From an uncultured archaeon (GTDB lineage Archaea; Halobacteriota; Methanosarcinia; Methanotrichales; Methanotrichaceae): a DNA stretch of 24,670 nt. The notes below the pieces were generated by a model. The model did not search any database. It had not been told where the DNA came from and worked only from the letters and a program-made list of their open reading frames with translations. The position numbers were made by a program, and so were the translations under genes. Position 1 is the stretch's first letter; each line of letters opens with the position of its first letter. This document shows, in pieces, positions 9,031-23,568 of the stretch. Location of the stretch: positions 1 through 24,670 of the forward strand of contig CABMDX010000171.1 in the NCBI GenBank assembly GCA_902385025.1. Reading direction: 5' to 3'.

Positions 9031-9618
9031 TTATTCTACTTCAGCTTTTCCTAGGGAGAAGGCCTTCTTGTTTGCTTCCAGGTACCGGCCCGGCACTACC
9101 TCTGACAGTGCTGCCTGGAGAAGATCTTCGGGCAGGGGAATATATCTGCATAATGCGCCCAGCATTACAACATTCATTGCCTGGGCCGTGCCAGCCTGAC
9201 GGGCGAGTCTGGTAGCATCCATGGATTTTACCTCCCGGCAGAGGCCACTGAGTGGAGCGAGAATCTCCTCCCAGGAAGGATAGGCGAATTTCCCGGTGGT
9301 TACAGTCACGGGCAGAACAGGGCCTGTATTCACCAAAGCGACGCCTTCCGGAGAGAGAAAATGGGCAAAACGCAGCGCCTCTGCGGGCTCCAGCGCCAGC
9401 AGCACATCCGCCCCGCCGGAGGCGACCATGGGACTGTAGCGGCATCCGATGCGTGTATGATTGATCACGCTGCCACCCCGCTGGGCCATGCCGTGCGTCT
9501 CTGCGCCGCGCATGGGCTTTGCGGCCATAACTCCTGCCCGTCCAATAACATCCGATATCAGGATAACTCCCTGACCGCCTACTCCAACTATCACTATATC
9601 GCACTCCGAGGTTCTCAT
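9031..9618 (-). CDS. iorB: Indolepyruvate:ferredoxin oxidoreductase, beta subunit
   Basis: This 195-residue protein is the gamma-domain-type subunit of IorAB. It begins CDIVIVGVGGQGVILISDVI, with a glycine-rich turn, then carries AETHGMAQRGGSVINHTRIG, the family signature, and ADVLLALEPAEALRF. With IorA it oxidises indolepyruvate and other arylpyruvates to aryl-acetyl-CoA, passing electrons to ferredoxin. In methanogens the reverse direction can make aromatic amino acids from arylacetates. I use the ATG at 9618 because GGAGGTG lies nine bases before it. The frame is open further upstream but overlaps iorA. This ATG overlaps the second TGA of the iorA frame as ATGA, typical of translational coupling. 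Confidence 0.93.
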   Translation of the reverse strand: MRTSECDIVIVGVGGQGVILISDVIGRAGVMAAKPMRGAETHGMAQRGGSVINHTRIGCRYSPMVASGGADVLLALEPAEALRFAHFLSPEGVALVNTGPVLPVTVTTGKFAYPSWEEILAPLSGLCREVKSMDATRLARQAGTAQAMNVVMLGALCRYIPLPEDLLQAALSEVVPGRYLEANKKAFSLGKAEVE

Positions 9619-11399
9619 GGCTTCACCTCCTGGATGGCACCGCTGGGTCAGATCTTGGCGCAAACCCCGCATCCGGTGCACAGATTATTGATCCGGGCCG
9701 CATCACCCGAAAACTCAATGGCCGGGCAGCCGAACTCCAGGCAAACCCTGCATCCCCCGCAATCTGCGCCGATGGAGAAGACCTTGCGTTTGCCGCCAGA
9801 TCGGCGAGCCCTGATCACGCATGGCTGCCGGGCAATGACAACCGAGAGCCCATCAAACTCCTTCGCCCTCTGGAAGCAATCCATTGTAGCTTCCATATCG
9901 TAAGGGTCGGCGGTCTCCACAAATCCTGCCCCCAGGGCTCTGGCAAGAGCCTCAAGTGATACCTGAACCGTCAATTCGCCTGTGGCCGTGACGCCAGTTC
10001 CCGGATGGGGCTGATGGCCGGTCATGGCCGTAGTGGAGTTGTCGAGGATGGTCACAGTAATCCTGGCTTTATTGTAGGCGGCATTCATCAGGCCGGTCAG
10101 GCCGCTGTGCAGGAATGTGGAGTCACCGAGGCTCGCGCAGATACCCTCCGTCTCGCCGGCAAAGCGAATGCCGCTGGCGAGAGTTATGCTGCCGCCCATG
10201 CAAAGGCACGTATCCACCGTTCCCATGCCCACGGCCATGGTATAGCATCCGATGTCGCTCGGGTAGATGGCCTTCTTGCCAAAGACCCTTCGCATGGCGT
10301 AGTAGGTGGCGCGGTGGCTGCAACCCGGGCAGAGTGCCGGTGGCCTGGGGGGCAGGATCTTCTCTGCAAAAGAGCTCCGGGGCGCCCTTTCCGCCAATCC
10401 TTGCATGCGAGCAATGGCATTTCTCACCATCAAAAAGTCCAGCTCTCCCTCCCGCGGAATGCTTCCCTCTTTGCCCAGAATTTCAACAGTCGGATTGACC
10501 TTTCTCGCCACCCTTTCTACCTGCTCTTCCACAACCGGCTCCAGCTCCTCGAGCACCATAACCCTGCTGACATGCTCCAGCATGCGAACGATCAGTCTAT
10601 GAGGCATGGGATAGCAGCCCAGGCGAAGAAGGGATACATCCTCGTCCAGATCCCTTATGGCCTCCTCTGCATAAATTCCGGCTATGCCCGAAGCGATGAT
10701 TCCTGTGCTCCCCCGGAGCTGCAGCTTATTCCAGGGAGCTTTCTCCAGCTCTGCCTCCATTTTCGCCTGCTTTTCCAATAGCTCGGTATGCAGCGGCCTG
10801 GCATGCACAGGAAGAGCGACCCGTCGCGCAGGGTTCTTCACGAACTGCTTTTGTCCTTGCAGGCACTTTGCATACTGGTATTCCACATCAGCCCGAGCAT
10901 GCGAGACGCGTGTGGTGGGCCTGAGCATCACCGGTATGTTGAACTTCTCAGACAGCTCAAAGCCATAAGCTGCCATATCCTTTGCTTCCTGGGGGTCCGC
11001 AGGATCAAGGCAGGGTATGGAGGCAAATTGTGCGTACCGCCTTGAATCCTGCTCATTCTGAGAGGAATGGCAATAGGGATCGTCAGCCGATATCACTACC
11101 AGACCCGCGCCCACACCAAGATAGGCCAGGGTCATGAAGGGATCGGCAGCAACATTCAAGCCAACATGCTTCATGGTGGCTGCAGCGCGCGCGCCCGTCC
11201 AGGAGGCCCCTGCCGCCACCTCCAGTGCCACCTTTTCATTCACAGACCATTCCAGGTGCAGCGGCAGGTCGCCTTTGAGATCAACCAGCGTCTCGATGAT
11301 CTCCGAGGATGGGGTGCCGGGGTAGCCCGCGACGAGCCCCACCCCTGCCTCCAATAAGCCTCTTGCGATTGCTGCGTTTCCGAGGAGATATTCTCTCAC
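9615..11399 (-). CDS. iorA: Indolepyruvate:ferredoxin oxidoreductase, alpha subunit, with in-frame TGA near its end
   Basis: The protein begins REYLLGNAAIARGLLEAGV and has the pyrimidine domain GYPGTPSSEIIETL. The thiamine-diphosphate domain has PALCPGCSHRATYYAMRR and GDSTFLHSG (about residue 428, numbered from TTG 11405). It ends in a ferredoxin-like module. The first cluster motif is complete (Cys549, 552, 555, 560). The second has Cys576, 579 and 582, then a TGA (9650-9648) exactly where CxxCxxCxxxCP needs its fourth cysteine. Past it the same frame reads PSGAIQEVKP and stops at TGA 9617-9615, overlapping the iorB ATG as ATGA. I therefore annotate through the internal TGA. Strict reading would end at 9648, leaving a three-cysteine second motif. 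GTG 11399 has AGGATGG six bases upstream; TTG 11405 is an alternative start. A TATA box lies about 20 bases before the start. Confidence 0.9.
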
Positions 11400-11412
11400 A
11401 GTCAACCATCCT

Positions 11413-12986: not shown

Positions 12987-13125
12987 GTTTTGATGTTTTA
13001 TTAACGTTTGAGTGCGTTCAAGTGCGCTGATGGGGCCATGGATGATCGTTATGGGGATCAAACATTCTGCTCCTTTTCTCGAAGTGGCATTTTCCATTGA
13101 GAACTGCCGGTGCAGGCATCCTCTC

Positions 13126-14628
13126 TTAGTTTGGCGCTTCCCCTCGTTTCATCCTCTTCAGGTACTTGTTTAATGCAATGTCCGCCACGAGATTTATGCC
13201 CGTCAGGGCGGCATGAACGGCCGGGCCAGCAGTCATCCTCTCGCTGTACAGGCGGTGCAGCTTCTTTAAATGCCGCAGGTTATATTCCAGACACAGTCCC
13301 ACCAGCTCCCAGTGCTCTGGCAGTGCATCCTGCTTGGCAAAGCCCCTGACGCCCCCGAGCTTTGTGTCGGCAATGGTCGTGAAGAAGAGCGGAAGCATGA
13401 GTCCGGTGTAATCCTTGAGCGATTCGACCAGCTCCGTGGTCTTGATGACATCGCTGGCGGTTTCGCCAGGCAGCCCCAGCACAAGGCTGGCCACAGGAAG
13501 CCAGGATTCTTCATCAAAGAGGCGGTAGCAGTCCCTCACAATCTCGGGCCAGTTTCCTATATCTCCGGGAAGCGCTTTGCGGGGCATATGCATCTGCAGG
13601 ATGCGACAGGATCCGGTCTCAATGCCAATCCAGGCAGACATATACTTTTGATTAGAGCCGACCCCTACCACTTCTGATATCTTGCGCAAGAGCCCCTGGC
13701 TCTGATGCACGGCGGCGAGGCTCAGGTGCGAGACATCCAGCGTCCTTGGCCCCAGCTTCATTACGTTTGCCACCAGCTCCAGGACCTTCTCTTCTGCAGG
13801 ATGCATTCCCTTTGAGCCGTAGGCGAAGAAGTCTTCACAATGCAGAAGAATGTCCCTCTGGCCGCCAGCCAGGTTCACCCTCACATCCTCCAGGATATTT
13901 TGCATCGGGCGATGGCGCATGGTGCGCATGGTGGGGGAGCAGAAAGCGCAGCCCCTCCAGCAGCCTCTGCCGATCTCCACTATCCCTCCGATGGTGGCGC
14001 CGCGGTTTATGGGAATTCTCTCTGCGGGAACTGCGGTTCCCCTGATCACTGGCGGGACAGTCTCTCCCAGCAATATCTTGCGGCAGACCTCTGGAAAATC
14101 GGATTCGCCCTCGCCAAGATAGATGTGATCCACTCCTACATCCTCACCTATCAGCTCCCAGGACCCGTTGCCTCCAACTACGATTCTTGGCTTATGCTTT
14201 TTCAGAAGCGGATGGTTGACCAGGGCCAGGAACTTGCTGCGGTTATGGGGCGGACCGCGGCGAATTATGTCCTCCAGCTCACGCACGGCAATCTTTCCCA
14301 TGGGATCATCGTGAGTAATTCCCACGATCTTCGTGTCCGGACCAATTGCCTTTTCCAGATGAGCAGGATGGGCTACCATGACATCATCTCGGGAGTAGCC
14401 TGCCTCCAGCAGCGCCGCCTCCACCTTGCGCATGCCGCAGGGGGCATATTGCGCCGAGCCGTCGCCTCTTGCCGGAACTGGCGGACAGAAGAAGGACCTG
14501 AAGATCCAGTCGGGCAGCACAGATGCGGGCATGATGGCCGCAAAGCCCAGCATCACGCCCCCATAGTAGCTGCTCATCATGGTCTCATCGCTTGTGAGAA
14601 CGATTTTTTTGCCCCGGCTCGCTGACAT
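13126..14628 (-). CDS. B12-binding-domain radical SAM protein
   Basis: The protein is about 500 residues from ATG 14628. The N-terminal half resembles the cobalamin-binding Rossmann region of B12 radical SAM enzymes (KKIVLTSDETMMSSYYGGVM, KPRIVVGGNGSWELIGE, DHIYLGEGESDFPEVCRKIL). The radical SAM motif follows at RGCWRGCAFCSPTMRTMR (Cys223, 227, 230) with an ISAWIGIETGS-like strand (MSAWIGIETGSCRILQMHMP) and a VLGLPGETASDV loop. Such enzymes carry out methylations, ring changes or sulfur insertions. The substrate is unknown. Longer starts up to 14724 would overlap the divergent sulfurtransferase gene, so I choose the ATG at 14628, with GGGAGGGG just ahead of it. About 70 bases separate the two divergent starts, so they may share control. 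Confidence 0.85.
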   Translation of the reverse strand: MSASRGKKIVLTSDETMMSSYYGGVMLGFAAIMPASVLPDWIFRSFFCPPVPARGDGSAQYAPCGMRKVEAALLEAGYSRDDVMVAHPAHLEKAIGPDTKIVGITHDDPMGKIAVRELEDIIRRGPPHNRSKFLALVNHPLLKKHKPRIVVGGNGSWELIGEDVGVDHIYLGEGESDFPEVCRKILLGETVPPVIRGTAVPAERIPINRGATIGGIVEIGRGCWRGCAFCSPTMRTMRHRPMQNILEDVRVNLAGGQRDILLHCEDFFAYGSKGMHPAEEKVLELVANVMKLGPRTLDVSHLSLAAVHQSQGLLRKISEVVGVGSNQKYMSAWIGIETGSCRILQMHMPRKALPGDIGNWPEIVRDCYRLFDEESWLPVASLVLGLPGETASDVIKTTELVESLKDYTGLMLPLFFTTIADTKLGGVRGFAKQDALPEHWELVGLCLEYNLRHLKKLHRLYSERMTAGPAVHAALTGINLVADIALNKYLKRMKRGEAPN

Positions 14629-14697: not shown

Positions 14698-16221
14698 TTG
14701 CCGACTTTTGAGAAATTCGTGCAAGAGAAGTCGTTATCGGAAATCAACGAACGCATTCGCGACGGCTCGGCCCGCGTTGTAACAGCCGAGGAGATGCCTG
14801 ACCTTGTTGACGAGCTGGGCCCTGCCGGAGCAGTGCGTGAGGTGGATGTAGTCACCACTGGTACCTTCGGGGCCATGTGCTCCTCGGGAGTATTTCTCAA
14901 CCTTGGCCACAGCGATCCCCCCATAAAGATCGCAAAAGCCTGGCTTAACAAGGTTGAGGCTTATGGAGGAGTGGCCGCAGTCGACCTTTTCCTCGGAGCG
15001 ACACAGCCTTCTGAAGATAGAGGAATAGAGTATGGCGGAGCGCATGTCATGGAAGAGCTTCTGGCAGGAAAACAGATCGAGGTAGAGGCTCAAGGGGTCG
15101 GAACAGACTGCTACCCACAGATGGAGCTGGAGACCAATTTGCGCCTGGAGGACTTCAACCAGGCCACCATGGTCAATCCCCGCAACGCTTATCAGCGCTA
15201 CAACGCTGCCACCAACTCATCCGACCGCACGATGCATACATACATGGGTACACTGCTTCCGCGCCTGGGAAATGTTCACTATAGCGGCGCGGGGGTGCTC
15301 TCTCCCCTATCCAATGATCCGAGCTTCGATTATATCGGGATTGGAACGCGCATCTTCCTGGCAGGCGCCCAGGGGTACGACATGGGCTCCGGAACGCAGC
15401 ATAACCCTCAGAATGGCTTTTCCACGCTCATGGTCACAGGCGACATGAAGAGGATGAATAACACATTCCTGCGGGCAGCAACATTTCACAAATATGGCCC
15501 CAGCCTGTATCTGGGAATAGGCATACCTATCCCGGTTCTAAATGAAAAGATCGCCAAAAACACGGCCGTCAGAGATCGAGACATCACCGTCCCGGTTGTG
15601 GACTACGGCATACCGCGCCGCGACCGGCCTTCTTTGAAGCTGGTGAGCTACGAGGATCTGAAATCGGGCATAATAGATCTCAGCGGAAAAGAGGTCTCCA
15701 CCTCATCTCTGTCCAGCTTCCATATGGCCAGGGAGGTTGCCAGGGAATTGAAGTCTCAGGTGGAAGCGGGCGAGTTTCTGTTAAGTTCGGCTGTGGAGCC
15801 GCTGGCGCGCATAGGCAGCTCCCGGCCAATGAAGCAGACAAAAGAATCGCCAAATGTGGGGGATGGCATGAGCCGTGATGTGGTAACCGTCAGAGATGAG
15901 ATCCGTGTGGACGAGGCTGCCAGGCTCATTGTAATCGGAAGCTTCGACCATCTACCTGTTGTATCCAAAGATGGCCGGCTGATTGGCATTATCACAGCTT
16001 GGGACATCTCCAAGGCTGTGGCAAGCGGCAAATCATCTCGCATAGCTGAGATCATGACCCGCCGGGTTTACTCTGTCCGGGTGGATGAGCCCATTGAGCT
16101 TGCAGCCAGAACATTAGACACACATAGCATCTCAGCTCTGCCTGTGGTAGACAGGGACGACAAAGTGATAGGCATGATCACCAGCGATCATCTCTCCCGC
16201 CTGCTTGCGCGGAGGCGATAG
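14698..16221 (+). CDS. L-aspartate semialdehyde sulfurtransferase (DUF39 plus CBS)
   Basis: This 507-residue protein belongs to the family that converts aspartate semialdehyde to homocysteine in methanogens, characterised as MA1821 in Methanosarcina. The DUF39 domain runs from about residue 10 to 370. It has Cys61 in VVTTGTFGAMCSSG and Cys138 in VGTDCYPQME, matching the two conserved cysteines of the characterised protein. Two CBS motifs follow at about 386-505, with DHLPVVSKDGRLIGIITAWD and SALPVVDRDDKVIGMITSDH, which may sense adenosyl compounds. The start is TTG 14698 or GTG 14722; neither has a ribosome binding site, so a leaderless transcript is likely. The NIL/ferredoxin partner follows after two bases. 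This route serves homocysteine and methionine synthesis in organisms that take sulfur as sulfide. Confidence 0.93.
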   Translation: MPTFEKFVQEKSLSEINERIRDGSARVVTAEEMPDLVDELGPAGAVREVDVVTTGTFGAMCSSGVFLNLGHSDPPIKIAKAWLNKVEAYGGVAAVDLFLGATQPSEDRGIEYGGAHVMEELLAGKQIEVEAQGVGTDCYPQMELETNLRLEDFNQATMVNPRNAYQRYNAATNSSDRTMHTYMGTLLPRLGNVHYSGAGVLSPLSNDPSFDYIGIGTRIFLAGAQGYDMGSGTQHNPQNGFSTLMVTGDMKRMNNTFLRAATFHKYGPSLYLGIGIPIPVLNEKIAKNTAVRDRDITVPVVDYGIPRRDRPSLKLVSYEDLKSGIIDLSGKEVSTSSLSSFHMAREVARELKSQVEAGEFLLSSAVEPLARIGSSRPMKQTKESPNVGDGMSRDVVTVRDEIRVDEAARLIVIGSFDHLPVVSKDGRLIGIITAWDISKAVASGKSSRIAEIMTRRVYSVRVDEPIELAARTLDTHSISALPVVDRDDKVIGMITSDHLSRLLARRR

Positions 16222-16223
16222 AC

Positions 16224-16610
16224 ATGAAGCTTATGCTGCATGTGGCCCCTGGCATTGTTCGCCAACCTCTGATCGCCTCGGTCATCCTGGAAACTTCGGC
16301 TCTGGTGAACATTGAGAGAGCCAGCATTGATGCTGTGAGCGGAGAGATCGTACTGGAGGTGCCGGCCGAAAAGTGTGCCGTGGTAAAGGAGGCCTTCGAG
16401 AGGCGCGGGGTCAAGGTAGTGCCTTTGGAGATACCCGTCATTAGGGATGAAAACGAATGCGTTCACTGCGGAGCCTGCGTCTCGATCTGCCCTACGCAAA
16501 CCTTCCGCTTCGAAGATTGGCGAGTGGTTGCAGATGAAGGAAAATGTATTCAGTGCGGAGCCTGCATCATGGGCTGTCCCCAGCGCGCACTGAAGCTGGT
16601 GCTAAAGTAG
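16224..16610 (+). CDS. NIL-domain 2[4Fe-4S] ferredoxin, sulfurtransferase partner
   Basis: This 128-residue protein has an N-terminal NIL domain (residues 1-70, MLHVAPGIVRQPLIASVI and KEAFERRGVKVVPLEI). Two complete [4Fe-4S] motifs follow: Cys79, 82, 85 and 89 in NECVHCGACVSICP, and Cys108, 111, 114 and 118 in GKCIQCGACIMGCP. It corresponds to MA1822 of Methanosarcina, the electron carrier needed with the DUF39 sulfurtransferase for homocysteine synthesis, where it is thought to supply reducing power to the persulfide step. It starts two bases after the stop of the sulfurtransferase gene, so the two must be cotranscribed and probably translationally coupled. The stop is TAG. Confidence 0.93.
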   Translation: MKLMLHVAPGIVRQPLIASVILETSALVNIERASIDAVSGEIVLEVPAEKCAVVKEAFERRGVKVVPLEIPVIRDENECVHCGACVSICPTQTFRFEDWRVVADEGKCIQCGACIMGCPQRALKLVLK

Positions 16611-17050: not shown

Positions 17051-17082
17051 GTTTCATATGTTTTGTGGAGGTGGCAAGCCGC

Positions 17083-20000
17083 ATGGCCGAAGATAGCATC
17101 ATCACCTGCTTGAAATATCTGCATGATATTCTCGATGACCCGAAAGGCTACGAGCCAGAGCGCCTGAAGGAGCTCTCCGCCCGGGCGCCAGAGAGTGTCT
17201 CTTCCTTTATAAAAGCAATTCTCTCCTCAGATGATATCGGCATGCAAAGCAAGCTTGGTGTGCTCGCAGATCATGCCAATTCCACCAACAGTTTCATGGG
17301 CTGGTTTTGCCTGGGAGCCCTAGCCCACCGTCTCTACTTCCATCAGGCCGCGGTGGAATTTTATGCTCAGAGCCTCTGCATAGCTCGTAGCCAGATGGAT
17401 CTCCAAAAAATCTCGCAGGCATTAGAAGGCCAGGGTGGCCTCTACTTCGAGGAAGAGGACTGGGATCGAGCCCGCCAATGCTATGAAGAAGCAATGCAGA
17501 ACCTGAAAAAAGCAGGTGCAAGCGAACAAAAGGCCCGTGTTCTGAAAAATCTCTGCCATGTCTACCGCATGCAAGGGGAGGATTCAAATGCCATCAAATG
17601 CTGTCACCAGATTCTGCATGAGCCAGAGGACCAGAAAGGATCTTTGCATCCAGAGGCCTGGAGCGATCTTGGAAGATTGCACCAGATGCAGGGCGATTTG
17701 GCTTTGGCCAGGGAATGTTTTCAAAAAAGCCTGGATGAGAGAGAAAAGAACAGGGACGCGAGTGGCCAGGCAGCGACTCTGGCATCTCTGGCTGAAATCT
17801 ATCAGCTCCAGGGTGATCAGGATAGGGCGCATAGCTGCCTTGAAAGGGCAAGACACTTTTTGCAGGATTTGGGAGACCAGGTTGGCGCAGCCAGGATGAG
17901 GTGCCTCCAGGGCGACCAATATGCTCTGGAGTCAAAGTGGCCTCAGGCCCTGGATTGCTATCAAGAGAGCCTGGCGGGGCTTATGGAATTCGACTCTTCC
18001 CGCGCTGCTGAAACCCTGAAGCGAATGGGCAACTGTTTTCTGGAGACAGGCGCACTGGAGGCGGCGGCGGACAGTTTCCAGAAAGCTGCGAAGCTAATGG
18101 AGGCCCTGGACGATCTCTCAGGTCGTGCAGATGGTTTGAGCTCTCTGGCTGGCATATACCAGCGACAGGGCAGACAGGATGAAGCCCTGCAAGAGCTTGG
18201 TCAGGTTCTCAAAATCAGGGAGCAGCAAAACGATTGGAAAGGCATCATGGCCGCTTTAAATGTTATGGGTACAATCCATGCACAGGAATGTGATTGGAAG
18301 AAGGCGGCAGAATGTAGCCAGAAAGCCCGGGATATTCTGACAAAATGCGGCGACACAAAGGAAGCTGCTTTGGCCCTCTCAAATCAGGGAAGCATTTGTC
18401 ACCTGCATGGCGATCTCGAAACCGCTCAGGATTACTATATTCAAGCCATGGAGATCTTTGATAGGCTGGATGAGCCGCAGGAAAGGGCCCAGGCCCAATC
18501 GAATCTTGGGCTGATCTATCAGCGCAAAGGCGATTTGTTAGGTGCGCAGGAATGCTTCCAAAGCTGTCTGGCTGCTAGAGTTGAGATGGGTGACCAGGCT
18601 GGTGCAGCCGCCACAAAGGTGAATCTGGGACTCATTTTTCAGCTTCAAGGAAAATGGGATATCGCAAAATCTCATTTTCTGGAATCTGCCCGGACCTTTG
18701 AGGAGCAAAGAGACATGCAGGGCGTCTCTGCTGCTCAAAACAATCTCGGAAACCTCTATGCAGACCAGGGCGACCTCCTGGCAGCCGCCAAATGCTTCAG
18801 ACGGAGCATCGAGGCCAAAGAGGCCTGCGGCGACAAGCATGGCATTGCAACAACCGAGGGAAATCTTGCCGGCATTTACCTGCAGATGGGCCAGAAGGAG
18901 AAAGCAGAGGAAATGTACCGCAAGGCTCTTTCAGGCTTCACTGAGAGCTCTGACTGCAAAGGGATGGCCAACTCCCTCCTCGGCCTGGCCTGCCTATTGG
19001 CAGACAGGGGCGACCTGGAGGAAGCTTTGCAGCATTTTCGGAGCAGTTTATCTCTGGCGATAGAGCTGCAGGATTCGCAGGCCATGATCCCCGCGCTGGA
19101 AGGCTTTGTGAATATCTGCCAAAAGCAAGGCAACTGGCAGGGGGCGGAAGTGAAGATCTCTCTGGTTTTAGAGTCTCTTCGAAGTTGTGGCAATTATCAG
19201 TCAGAGGCCGCAGTCTTGTGCAGCCAGGGAAATCTTCGGGCAGATCTTGGACAGTGGGAGGGTGCCCTGCACTGCTATCAGGAGAGCCTGGAAATCCTAG
19301 AGCGGTTGGGGGATGATTACAGCATAGCCGTTGCCAGGAACAATCTGGGCAACATCTGCTATCGGCGCGGAGACTGGACTGGTGCTCTTGAGAACTATCG
19401 CTTAAGCATAAAAGGCTTCGAGAGGGCTGATGATGCCCTAAGCCAGGCTTCGGTCCAGAGCAACCTGGCCAGCCTCTGCTACAAGAGAGGCGAGTGGCAA
19501 GAAGCTCTGGATTGCTACCATGAGAGCCTGGCCATTTTCGAGAAGTTGGAGGATGAAGCTGGCGCGGCCCGGGTACTTGGCAATCTTGGCACATTTTACA
19601 GCCGGAGGGGGGAAGGAAGCCTGGCACTGGAGCATTTCACAAGGAGCCGGGACACTCTACTGAGATTGCGGGATCGTGGGGCAGCTATGGAGATGCAGTC
19701 CTGTATCGACATGATCAAAGCAGGCCAGGGTGATAGAACCACCGACCTGGACAATCTTTACAGGCAACTGGAGGATTTGAAAGCAGAAGGCGACATCTCC
19801 GGTCAGGCAGAGGTGCAGGGTGCTCTGGCAGGCGAGCATGTTGATAGGGGTCAATGGGATCAGGCTCTTTTGTGCTACCAGAGAAGTTTGGAGCTTTTTG
19901 TGCAATCGGGAGAGGTCTACAACCAGGCCCAGACTCTATTCAATATGGCCCTGGTAGAGAGAGATAAAGGCAATCTGACTCGGGCGACAAGGCTATTTGA

Positions 20001-20916
20001 AGAGGGCTTGAAGATATTTCAGAGCCTTGCCGCAGTTCCCTGCATTGCCCTCTGTGAGCTCAACTTGGCTGCAATCCTTGGCCAGGGGGGATTGCCCTCT
20101 AAGGCCCTGGAGCTATTCCATAAAGCCCTGAACGTCCTGGAGGGCCTGGGCGCTCTTCCGGATCTATGTGAGGGCTATCTTTCCCTGGCCCAGTTCAAGA
20201 TCCGCGAGGGCCTCCTTCAAGAGGCCGGTTTCTATCTCTCTATGGCTGAGACCCTGATTTCTCGCACCAACTACCAGCCCCTCCAAATTCAGCTATATAG
20301 TGCCATGGGTGAGCTAAATCAGAAGGAAGCGAAGCTTGATCTGGCTCAGGACTGCTTTGAAAAGGCCTTGACCCTTGCCAGGCGGCTTATGCATCTGCAT
20401 GAGGAAGCAAAAGCCTGTGCAAATCTTGGGAGGCTGGCCCTGGTCAGGAGCGACTATCAGGGCGCGCGGGATCGACTGCAGCAGGCTCTGGCAATTTTCA
20501 CGCGTCTGGGGGCAGTGCATGACTCCATTTCAATTTACGGTGATTTGACCGGCCTGTTCATAGCTCTGGAGGATTATGAGAAGGCAGAGGAGATGGCACT
20601 CCTCAGACAACGCCAGGCCAGGATTCTGGGATGCGTCGATCTGAACGTCCTGGCACTGACAGATCTCGCCGAATGCGAGGCCCATACAGGCAGAAGCGAT
20701 GCCGCTAGAGCCGATTATGCCCATGCCGTGCAAATTGTTCAGAATGAGAGATCCAGGGTTCCATCAGAGACGGTTAACAAAATAGCAGGAAAAGTCATAG
20801 ATTTCCTGAAGATTGGGCAGGAGGAAGAGCCTCTGGACCCGGCGTTGCGCTCAAAGCTGCAAAAAGGAGACTACGAAGCCTTTATGGCTGCGCTGCCTTC
20901 AGAGTTCAAAAAATAG
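17083..20916 (+). CDS. Giant TPR-repeat protein
   Basis: This 1277-residue protein is built almost entirely of about 29 consecutive 40-residue tetratricopeptide repeats, of the TPR_12 type seen in kinesin light chain and LGN-like scaffolds. Typical repeat cores are NNLGNLYADQGDLLAAAKCF and NNLGNICYRRGDWTGALENY. The 21st unit (about residues 870-910) is degenerate and may act as a hinge. A short N-terminal helix region precedes the repeats and a tail (EEEPLDPALRSKLQKGDYE) follows. No signal peptide, membrane segment, NTPase, CHAT, kinase or other catalytic domain is visible, so it is probably a soluble superhelical scaffold. I use ATG 17083, with GGAGGTG nine bases upstream; GTG 17065 is an alternative. 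The stop is TAG, and the next gene ends one base away on the other strand. Partner unknown. Confidence 0.92.
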   Translation: MAEDSIITCLKYLHDILDDPKGYEPERLKELSARAPESVSSFIKAILSSDDIGMQSKLGVLADHANSTNSFMGWFCLGALAHRLYFHQAAVEFYAQSLCIARSQMDLQKISQALEGQGGLYFEEEDWDRARQCYEEAMQNLKKAGASEQKARVLKNLCHVYRMQGEDSNAIKCCHQILHEPEDQKGSLHPEAWSDLGRLHQMQGDLALARECFQKSLDEREKNRDASGQAATLASLAEIYQLQGDQDRAHSCLERARHFLQDLGDQVGAARMRCLQGDQYALESKWPQALDCYQESLAGLMEFDSSRAAETLKRMGNCFLETGALEAAADSFQKAAKLMEALDDLSGRADGLSSLAGIYQRQGRQDEALQELGQVLKIREQQNDWKGIMAALNVMGTIHAQECDWKKAAECSQKARDILTKCGDTKEAALALSNQGSICHLHGDLETAQDYYIQAMEIFDRLDEPQERAQAQSNLGLIYQRKGDLLGAQECFQSCLAARVEMGDQAGAAATKVNLGLIFQLQGKWDIAKSHFLESARTFEEQRDMQGVSAAQNNLGNLYADQGDLLAAAKCFRRSIEAKEACGDKHGIATTEGNLAGIYLQMGQKEKAEEMYRKALSGFTESSDCKGMANSLLGLACLLADRGDLEEALQHFRSSLSLAIELQDSQAMIPALEGFVNICQKQGNWQGAEVKISLVLESLRSCGNYQSEAAVLCSQGNLRADLGQWEGALHCYQESLEILERLGDDYSIAVARNNLGNICYRRGDWTGALENYRLSIKGFERADDALSQASVQSNLASLCYKRGEWQEALDCYHESLAIFEKLEDEAGAARVLGNLGTFYSRRGEGSLALEHFTRSRDTLLRLRDRGAAMEMQSCIDMIKAGQGDRTTDLDNLYRQLEDLKAEGDISGQAEVQGALAGEHVDRGQWDQALLCYQRSLELFVQSGEVYNQAQTLFNMALVERDKGNLTRATRLFEEGLKIFQSLAAVPCIALCELNLAAILGQGGLPSKALELFHKALNVLEGLGALPDLCEGYLSLAQFKIREGLLQEAGFYLSMAETLISRTNYQPLQIQLYSAMGELNQKEAKLDLAQDCFEKALTLARRLMHLHEEAKACANLGRLALVRSDYQGARDRLQQALAIFTRLGAVHDSISIYGDLTGLFIALEDYEKAEEMALLRQRQARILGCVDLNVLALTDLAECEAHTGRSDAARADYAHAVQIVQNERSRVPSETVNKIAGKVIDFLKIGQEEEPLDPALRSKLQKGDYEAFMAALPSEFKK

Positions 20917-22943: not shown

Positions 22944-22968
22944 GGATTGATGATCAAATTGTTTGGTT

Positions 22969-23568
22969 ATGGTTATGATTGCAGGCCCGCTGGCTATGAC
23001 AGGATACTTTGTACTCTTTGCTCTCGTGCATAGTCTGCTGGCCGATCCACGCTTCAAGAGCAGGGCCGGAAGATGCATGGGTGGCATCTTTGAGCGCTGG
23101 TTCCGACTGGCATTTGTATTTCTTGCTATAATCATGGTCCTTCCGTTCGTCTATATCCTTGCATTCCTGCCTGGCAGGATGATTTACTTTATTCCAGCGC
23201 CATTTACATGGCTGATGGCAGCAGGCCAGCTACTGGCGGCTGTGGCCCTGCTGGCTGCACTTCGCCAGACGGGCTTTGCCTATTTCCTTGGACTTGGTCA
23301 TGGAGGGAGTAAAGCGGGATCATCAGGGCTTGTGACTGACGGCTTCTACTGCCACCTCAGAAATCCACTGTTCTTCTTTGGCGCATTCTTCCTGTGGCTT
23401 TCTCCCGTTATGACCTAGAGTCTTCTGACATTCAATCTTCTGGCCACGATCTACTTTTACCTGGGCGCTCGCCATGAGGAAAGGTCGCTAAGAGAGGAGT
23501 TTGGGCAGGATTACGAGGATTACCGGCAAAAGGTGCCAATGTTCCTGCCGCGACTGAAATGCAATTGA
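22969..23568 (+). CDS. Isoprenylcysteine/phospholipid methyltransferase-like membrane protein with internal TAG
   Basis: Read through one TAG, this is a 199-residue membrane protein of the ICMT/PEMT methyltransferase type. The first part has four hydrophobic segments (GPLAMTGYFVLFALVHSLL, AFVFLAIIMVLPFVYILAFL, WLMAAGQLLAAVALLAAL, PLFFFGAFFLWLSPV). It carries the family motif LVTDGFYCHLRNPLFFFG. After SPVMT the frame meets TAG (23416-23418). It then continues with SLLTFNLLATIYFYLGARHE, ERSLREEFGQDYEDYRQKVP and a TGA at 23566-23568. The second piece holds the conserved EERxLxxEFGxxYxxYxxxVP motif that these enzymes need for SAM and substrate binding. If the TAG stops translation the enzyme loses that motif. 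Many relatives have Trp (TGG) near this point, a one-base change from TAG; that is from memory, not alignment. The start is ATG 22969, with ATG 22975 and TTG 22963 as alternatives. Confidence 0.75.

Follow-up and report, generated by a model that had tools for sequence, protein, structure and literature searches.

An in-frame TGA at a conserved cysteine codon of an archaeal iorA gene is probably a sporadic base error in a draft genome

Background

The closest described counterparts of the gene reported here are the archaeal alpha subunits of indolepyruvate:ferredoxin oxidoreductase (IorA, family TIGR03336). It shares with them a match over the whole length, the TPP domains, two cysteine motifs and an iorB gene directly downstream; in contrast to these proteins, the gene as written has a stop codon in place of the second motif's fourth cysteine. 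A TGA codon where all compared relatives have cysteine is also a feature of archaeal selenoproteins. Published accounts place selenocysteine (Sec) in some methanogens, in Lokiarchaeota and in Bathyarchaeota (PMC2933860, PMC8211752, PMC9499178). According to a further paper, SelD, SelC and SelB are confined to archaea known to use Sec, and the entry for Methanosaeta thermophila gives a SelB-like protein together with a partial pylS derived from a short read (PMC3037878). A third point of comparison is the sporadic in-frame stops of draft genomes, such as the one in iorA of genome G026: these likewise are unconserved, of mixed stop codons and in unrelated genes, and nothing in our data sets the iorA TGA apart from them.

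A literature search found no report of the iorA TGA site. Among solved structures, six partial relatives were found, none of which is IorA itself at the cut-off used.

The iorA locus

The window (the whole 24,670-nucleotide stretch of DNA analysed) is contig C171 of draft genome G000, which consists of 2,278,623 bases in 390 contigs and has an estimated completeness of 78.6% and contamination of 0.96%. The features at the locus are as follows:

9031..9618, minus strand: iorB (PF01558 POR), intact, its ATG overlapping the downstream iorA stop
9618..9647, minus strand: conserved tail PSGAIQEVKP, 10 codons, 3' of the iorA TGA
9648..9650, minus strand: in-frame TGA, at the fourth cysteine position of the second CxxCxxCxxxCP motif
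9618..11405, minus strand: iorA, indolepyruvate:ferredoxin oxidoreductase alpha subunit, with the TGA read through; 596 codons, TTG start as listed

An alternative GTG start lies two codons 3' of the TTG. The iorA open reading frame has 585 codons without read-through and 596 with it. On the minus strand, the codons leading into the site are TGC ACC GGA TGC GGG GTT TGC GCC AAG ATC TGA, and those that follow the internal TGA are CCC AGC GGT GCC ATC CAG GAG GTG AAG CCA TGA; the end of the read-through peptide is CTGCGVCAKI-[TGA]-PSGAIQEVKP. The terminal TGA (9617-9615) overlaps the iorB ATG (9618-9616) as ATGA. The first-pass annotation had placed an in-frame TGA at the last cysteine of the second [4Fe-4S] motif and had continued the frame to a TGA overlapping the iorB ATG; both statements are borne out, the first at 9650-9648 of the minus strand and the second 10 codons on. 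Of the peptide that it quoted, PSGAIQEVKP is exact, whereas C-TGC-VCAKI is one G short of the actual CTGCGVCAKI.

Scored with cysteine in place of the TGA, the protein reaches 817.2 bits for TIGR03336 (IOR_alpha), above the curated cut-off of 650.9, in a match that covers its whole length (residues 4-591). As written, its second CxxCxxCxxxCP motif is incomplete, with the TGA at the fourth cysteine. This score, together with the cysteine codons found in the 109 other loci described below, confirms that the observation is real and more than chance.

Comparison with related IorA sequences

The closest named IorA matches are from Methanothrix metagenome-assembled genomes (MAGs), at 77-84% protein identity (the 84% match is partial); one match at 81% is filed as an uncultured Methanosarcinales archaeon. 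We compared 112 iorA loci, two of which are the window itself and one of which (L048) ends before the site, leaving 109 others, a set that includes the paralogue from G000 and counts some genomes twice. The codon at the position of the TGA is TGC in 51/109 and TGT in 58/109; one or the other is present in the closest relatives whose sequence extends to the site (81-82% identity), and a stop at this codon occurs in G000 alone among the loci compared. It had been suggested that a natural C-terminus would be indicated by relatives that stop at this TGA and lack the tail beyond it. When examined, the relatives were found to keep both the cysteine and, after it, a tail similar in length to that of the window; a natural C-terminus is therefore rejected, as 0/109 other loci end there.

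G000 carries a second IorA-like gene on contig C301 (L002), 46% identical to the first, with no stop and with TGT at the matching codon. The protein of this gene (G000:C301:3271-5004) reads CLGCGKWLGLGCP, with tryptophan in place of the third cysteine of the first motif; its TGG codon is one base from TGC or TGT. Stops elsewhere in the family include an in-frame TAG in the iorA of G026, a member of another genus, at a different codon (L026 position 1743), and one listed stop, internal or terminal, in each of three IorA-like paralogues: TGA in G024:C265:197-1927, TAG in G050:C3:392271-394130 and TAG in G044:C2:433363-435222.

Further in-frame stops in G000

Stops were counted in 267,496 bases of G000 (the window plus 40 stretches from contigs that were picked by number or because they contain tRNAs or the IorA paralogue), with 1.6 Mb of the relative G004 as the comparison. 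Unfiltered counts consisted largely of shadow frames on the antisense strand and of stops 5' of start codons; alignments were therefore kept only if their differences fell mostly at third codon positions, and the stops within them were inspected. The filtered set comprises 126 alignments and 29,289 codons, some antisense shadows remaining. Of 20 stops within it, five were judged by hand to be internal to conserved genes: those in iorA, a membrane methyltransferase-like gene, ribosomal protein S13, a UppS-family prenyltransferase and a DeoC/LacD-family aldolase. Fourteen others were judged to be upstream stops, natural gene ends or antisense shadows, and one, in a transposase-like fragment (L160), was set aside. 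A stricter filter (83 alignments) kept three of the five sites (iorA, UppS and S13); the other two, outside this filter, rest on the alignments of relatives and on profile matches. The L160 stretch (C96, about 13044-13283), which we take by resemblance to be a transposase fragment, carries an in-frame TAA.

One of these stops is the second in the window:

22963..23568, plus strand: presumably a membrane methyltransferase-like gene with an in-frame stop (named by resemblance; no Pfam match)
23416..23418, plus strand: TAG inside this gene

The codon at 23416-23418 is GAG in 8/15 relatives at ≥50% identity and other sense codons in the remaining seven. All 29 other loci realigned have sense codons here, and no stop is seen in the gene in the other matches listed.

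The S13 gene has a TAG at position 5017 of contig C85 (L159) and is the only S13 match found in G000. The site is CAG in all 17 genus members with a match (24 searched), none of which reports a stop; among 16 matches from more distant genomes, 12 report one or two stops each. In 12 distant loci that were realigned (4/16 lay outside the realignment), a stop falls inside the alignment only in L321, where a TGA stands at position 21, ahead of the conserved core, and we take the distant stops to be gene ends or upstream stops. Ribosomal protein S13 is indispensable; since G000 also shows a single copy, the protein has probably not truly been lost.

The UppS-family gene has a TAG at position 927 of contig C351 (L216), at a variable position of the protein; a TAA is listed for the corresponding matches of G017 and G004 and is located past position 259.

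The aldolase TGA is at position 18877 of contig C46 (L157). The two halves of the gene match adjoining positions of the PF01791 profile (2-55 and 58-229), and the TGA aligns with glycine (GGA) in a G004 paralogue, the residue thus being read from a paralogue and not an orthologue. Orthologues in 16 genus members (79-88% identity) have no stop. The orthologue of G009 (G009:C36:24835-25324) is split into two pieces, one of which contains both a TGA and a TAA; stops are also listed in lower-scoring matches of G006, G009 and G051. Because G000 has two further aldolase paralogues without stops, and because the G009 orthologue is in pieces with stops, this stop could mark a pseudogene: the aldolase may be dispensable, and its TGA may be genuine, both here and in G009.

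Controls and error load

The same filter applied to 45 control loci around iorA in relatives gave one internal stop (the G026 iorA TAG) in 57,344 codons, a rough comparison, as these loci include duplicates and come mostly from one gene neighbourhood. Inspection placed six control entries with stops, on L017, L034, L035 and L036, 5' of likely start codons; the remaining stops were judged either to precede the start of iorA or to be antisense to iorB. The count of internal stops is thus 5 in G000 versus 1 in the control, or 4 versus 1 without the iorA stop, which was ascertained; numerically, this excess is small.

From the five nonsense sites, we estimate an error rate in G000 of approximately 1 per kb, assuming that about 4-5% of random substitutions produce stops. 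Private changes at invariant columns, examined residue by residue in four genes, show no excess in G000, in a comparison of little power: there are four in IorA including the stop (range 0-9 over 29 sequences), one in S13 (the stop itself), one in UppS and none in the methyltransferase-like gene. This lack of excess does not itself favour error, and it speaks for a low error rate. Indel errors are not evident in the G000 sample, apart from one weak frameshift candidate.

Origin of the iorA TGA

Taken together, these results make a sporadic base error in the draft assembly the probable origin of the iorA TGA. According to this explanation, a spurious or non-heritable base would have replaced the third position of a TGC or TGT cysteine codon when the fragmented draft genome was sequenced or assembled, and the living organism would most likely make a normal IorA of full length that has both [4Fe-4S] motifs and is coupled to IorB. 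The stops of G000 fall at different residues (Cys, Gln, probably Gly, and variable positions), as random hits would, which fits sporadic errors. The first-pass annotation had left error or mutation as the default; this default is supported, and the further stops in unrelated genes of G000 shift the balance within it towards error. Neither the doubt over the aldolase, nor the distant S13 matches, nor the stricter filter changes these odds, since the S13, UppS and iorA sites stand in each case. We accordingly rank a base error first, a private nonsense mutation second and recoding as very unlikely, and we do not regard the iorA TGA as a biological novelty.

A recent nonsense mutation or strain polymorphism that truncates IorA by 11 residues comes second and is unlikely. 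The protein would then end at CTGCGVCAKI, the fourth ligand of the second cluster would be lost and iorB would be translated from its own ATG; the second IorA paralogue, free of stops and with TGT at the matching codon, may cover for the loss. The intact iorB and tail and the lack of a general excess of private changes are consistent with such an event, and IorA is not known to be essential. A mutation in iorA leaves the S13 stop unexplained, however: independent mutations would be needed in several genes, and the truncation is found in 0/109 other loci.

Reading of some stops as sense in this lineage, by a suppressor tRNA or by SelB-like delivery of Cys-tRNA, is far less probable still. In its favour, G000 holds several in-frame stops, and the literature offers precedents: in Methanosarcina mazei, Cys-tRNA-Cys is bound by a SelB-like protein, MM1309, with reported homologues in Methanosaeta (PMC4329189), and some bacteria are reported to have a tRNA-Cys whose anticodon is UCA (PMC7609411). 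The stops of G000 nevertheless mix TGA and TAG, and the compared relatives carry sense codons at the same sites. No consistent amino acid can be assigned to either codon, TGA standing for Cys in iorA and for the Gly of a paralogue in the aldolase, and TAG for Gln and for variable positions. Neither codon is lost or rare as a terminator: 69 gene ends in G000 comprise 29 TGA, 20 TAG and 20 TAA (32, 20 and 17 in G004). No UCA or CUA anticodon is present among the tRNAs called by ARAGORN, with 23 tRNA matches in the 78.6%-complete G000; two tRNAs that it did not call appear by eye to be intron-bearing Lys(UUU) and Ser(UGA). As an account of the stops in general, pyrrolysine or TAG reassignment is rejected, as the best PylS score (searched in G000 only) is 20.2 bits against a cut-off of 178.15 and TAG ends 20/69 genes.

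Decoding of the UGA as selenocysteine, which the first-pass annotation had listed among its alternatives, is extremely improbable. The TGA replaces exactly a conserved cysteine, the usual signature of a Sec site, whereas three parts of the machinery were not found over the cut-off in G000 or the relatives searched: SepSecS (TIGR03531) is over the cut-off in 0/60 genomes, with no match in G000 (78.6% complete) and with Methanocaldococcus jannaschii positive as a control; tRNA-Sec (RF01852) is over the cut-off in 0/60 genomes and in 5/14 controls; and SelD (TIGR00476) is over the cut-off in 0/41 genomes and in 2/14 controls. Two of the four weak tRNA-Sec matches in G000 coincide with ARAGORN calls of tRNA-Leu and tRNA-Arg, and the weaker SelD matches seen in 41/41 genomes are probably related enzymes. 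Unlike the sites of archaeal selenoproteins, moreover, the stops of G000 also fall at non-cysteine sites, the aldolase TGA standing where the aligned G004 paralogue has glycine. In the window, no family reaches the gathering score in an Rfam scan whose models may not include the archaeal SECIS. Selenocysteine is rejected on the missing SepSecS, tRNA-Sec and SelD, and the earlier remark that Sec is not known in Methanosarcinales holds as far as these three were searched, G000 being incomplete.

Equally improbable is a reading of the iorA UGA as cysteine that needs no selenium machinery, as might happen if an MM1309-like, SelB-like factor delivered Cys-tRNA-Cys, since the stops also occur at non-cysteine sites and are absent in relatives; if reads bore out the TGA and a full-length peptide were seen as well, such a factor would be the first to consider.

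True recoding would mean that archaea can read UGA in a previously unseen manner, and nothing here supports it. A site with the textbook appearance of Sec or Cys recoding can arise from one doubtful base in a draft genome; before recoding is claimed, a cheap test is to ask whether essential single-copy genes of the same assembly, such as S13 here, also contain stray stops.

Other features of the window

Some 3 kb from the iorAB operon, positions 14698-16610 of the plus strand encode a homocysteine biosynthesis protein, which combines PF01837 with CBS domains, and after it a small protein of ferredoxin type. Positions 17065-20916, also on the plus strand, encode a protein of 1283 amino acids that consists largely of TPR repeats.
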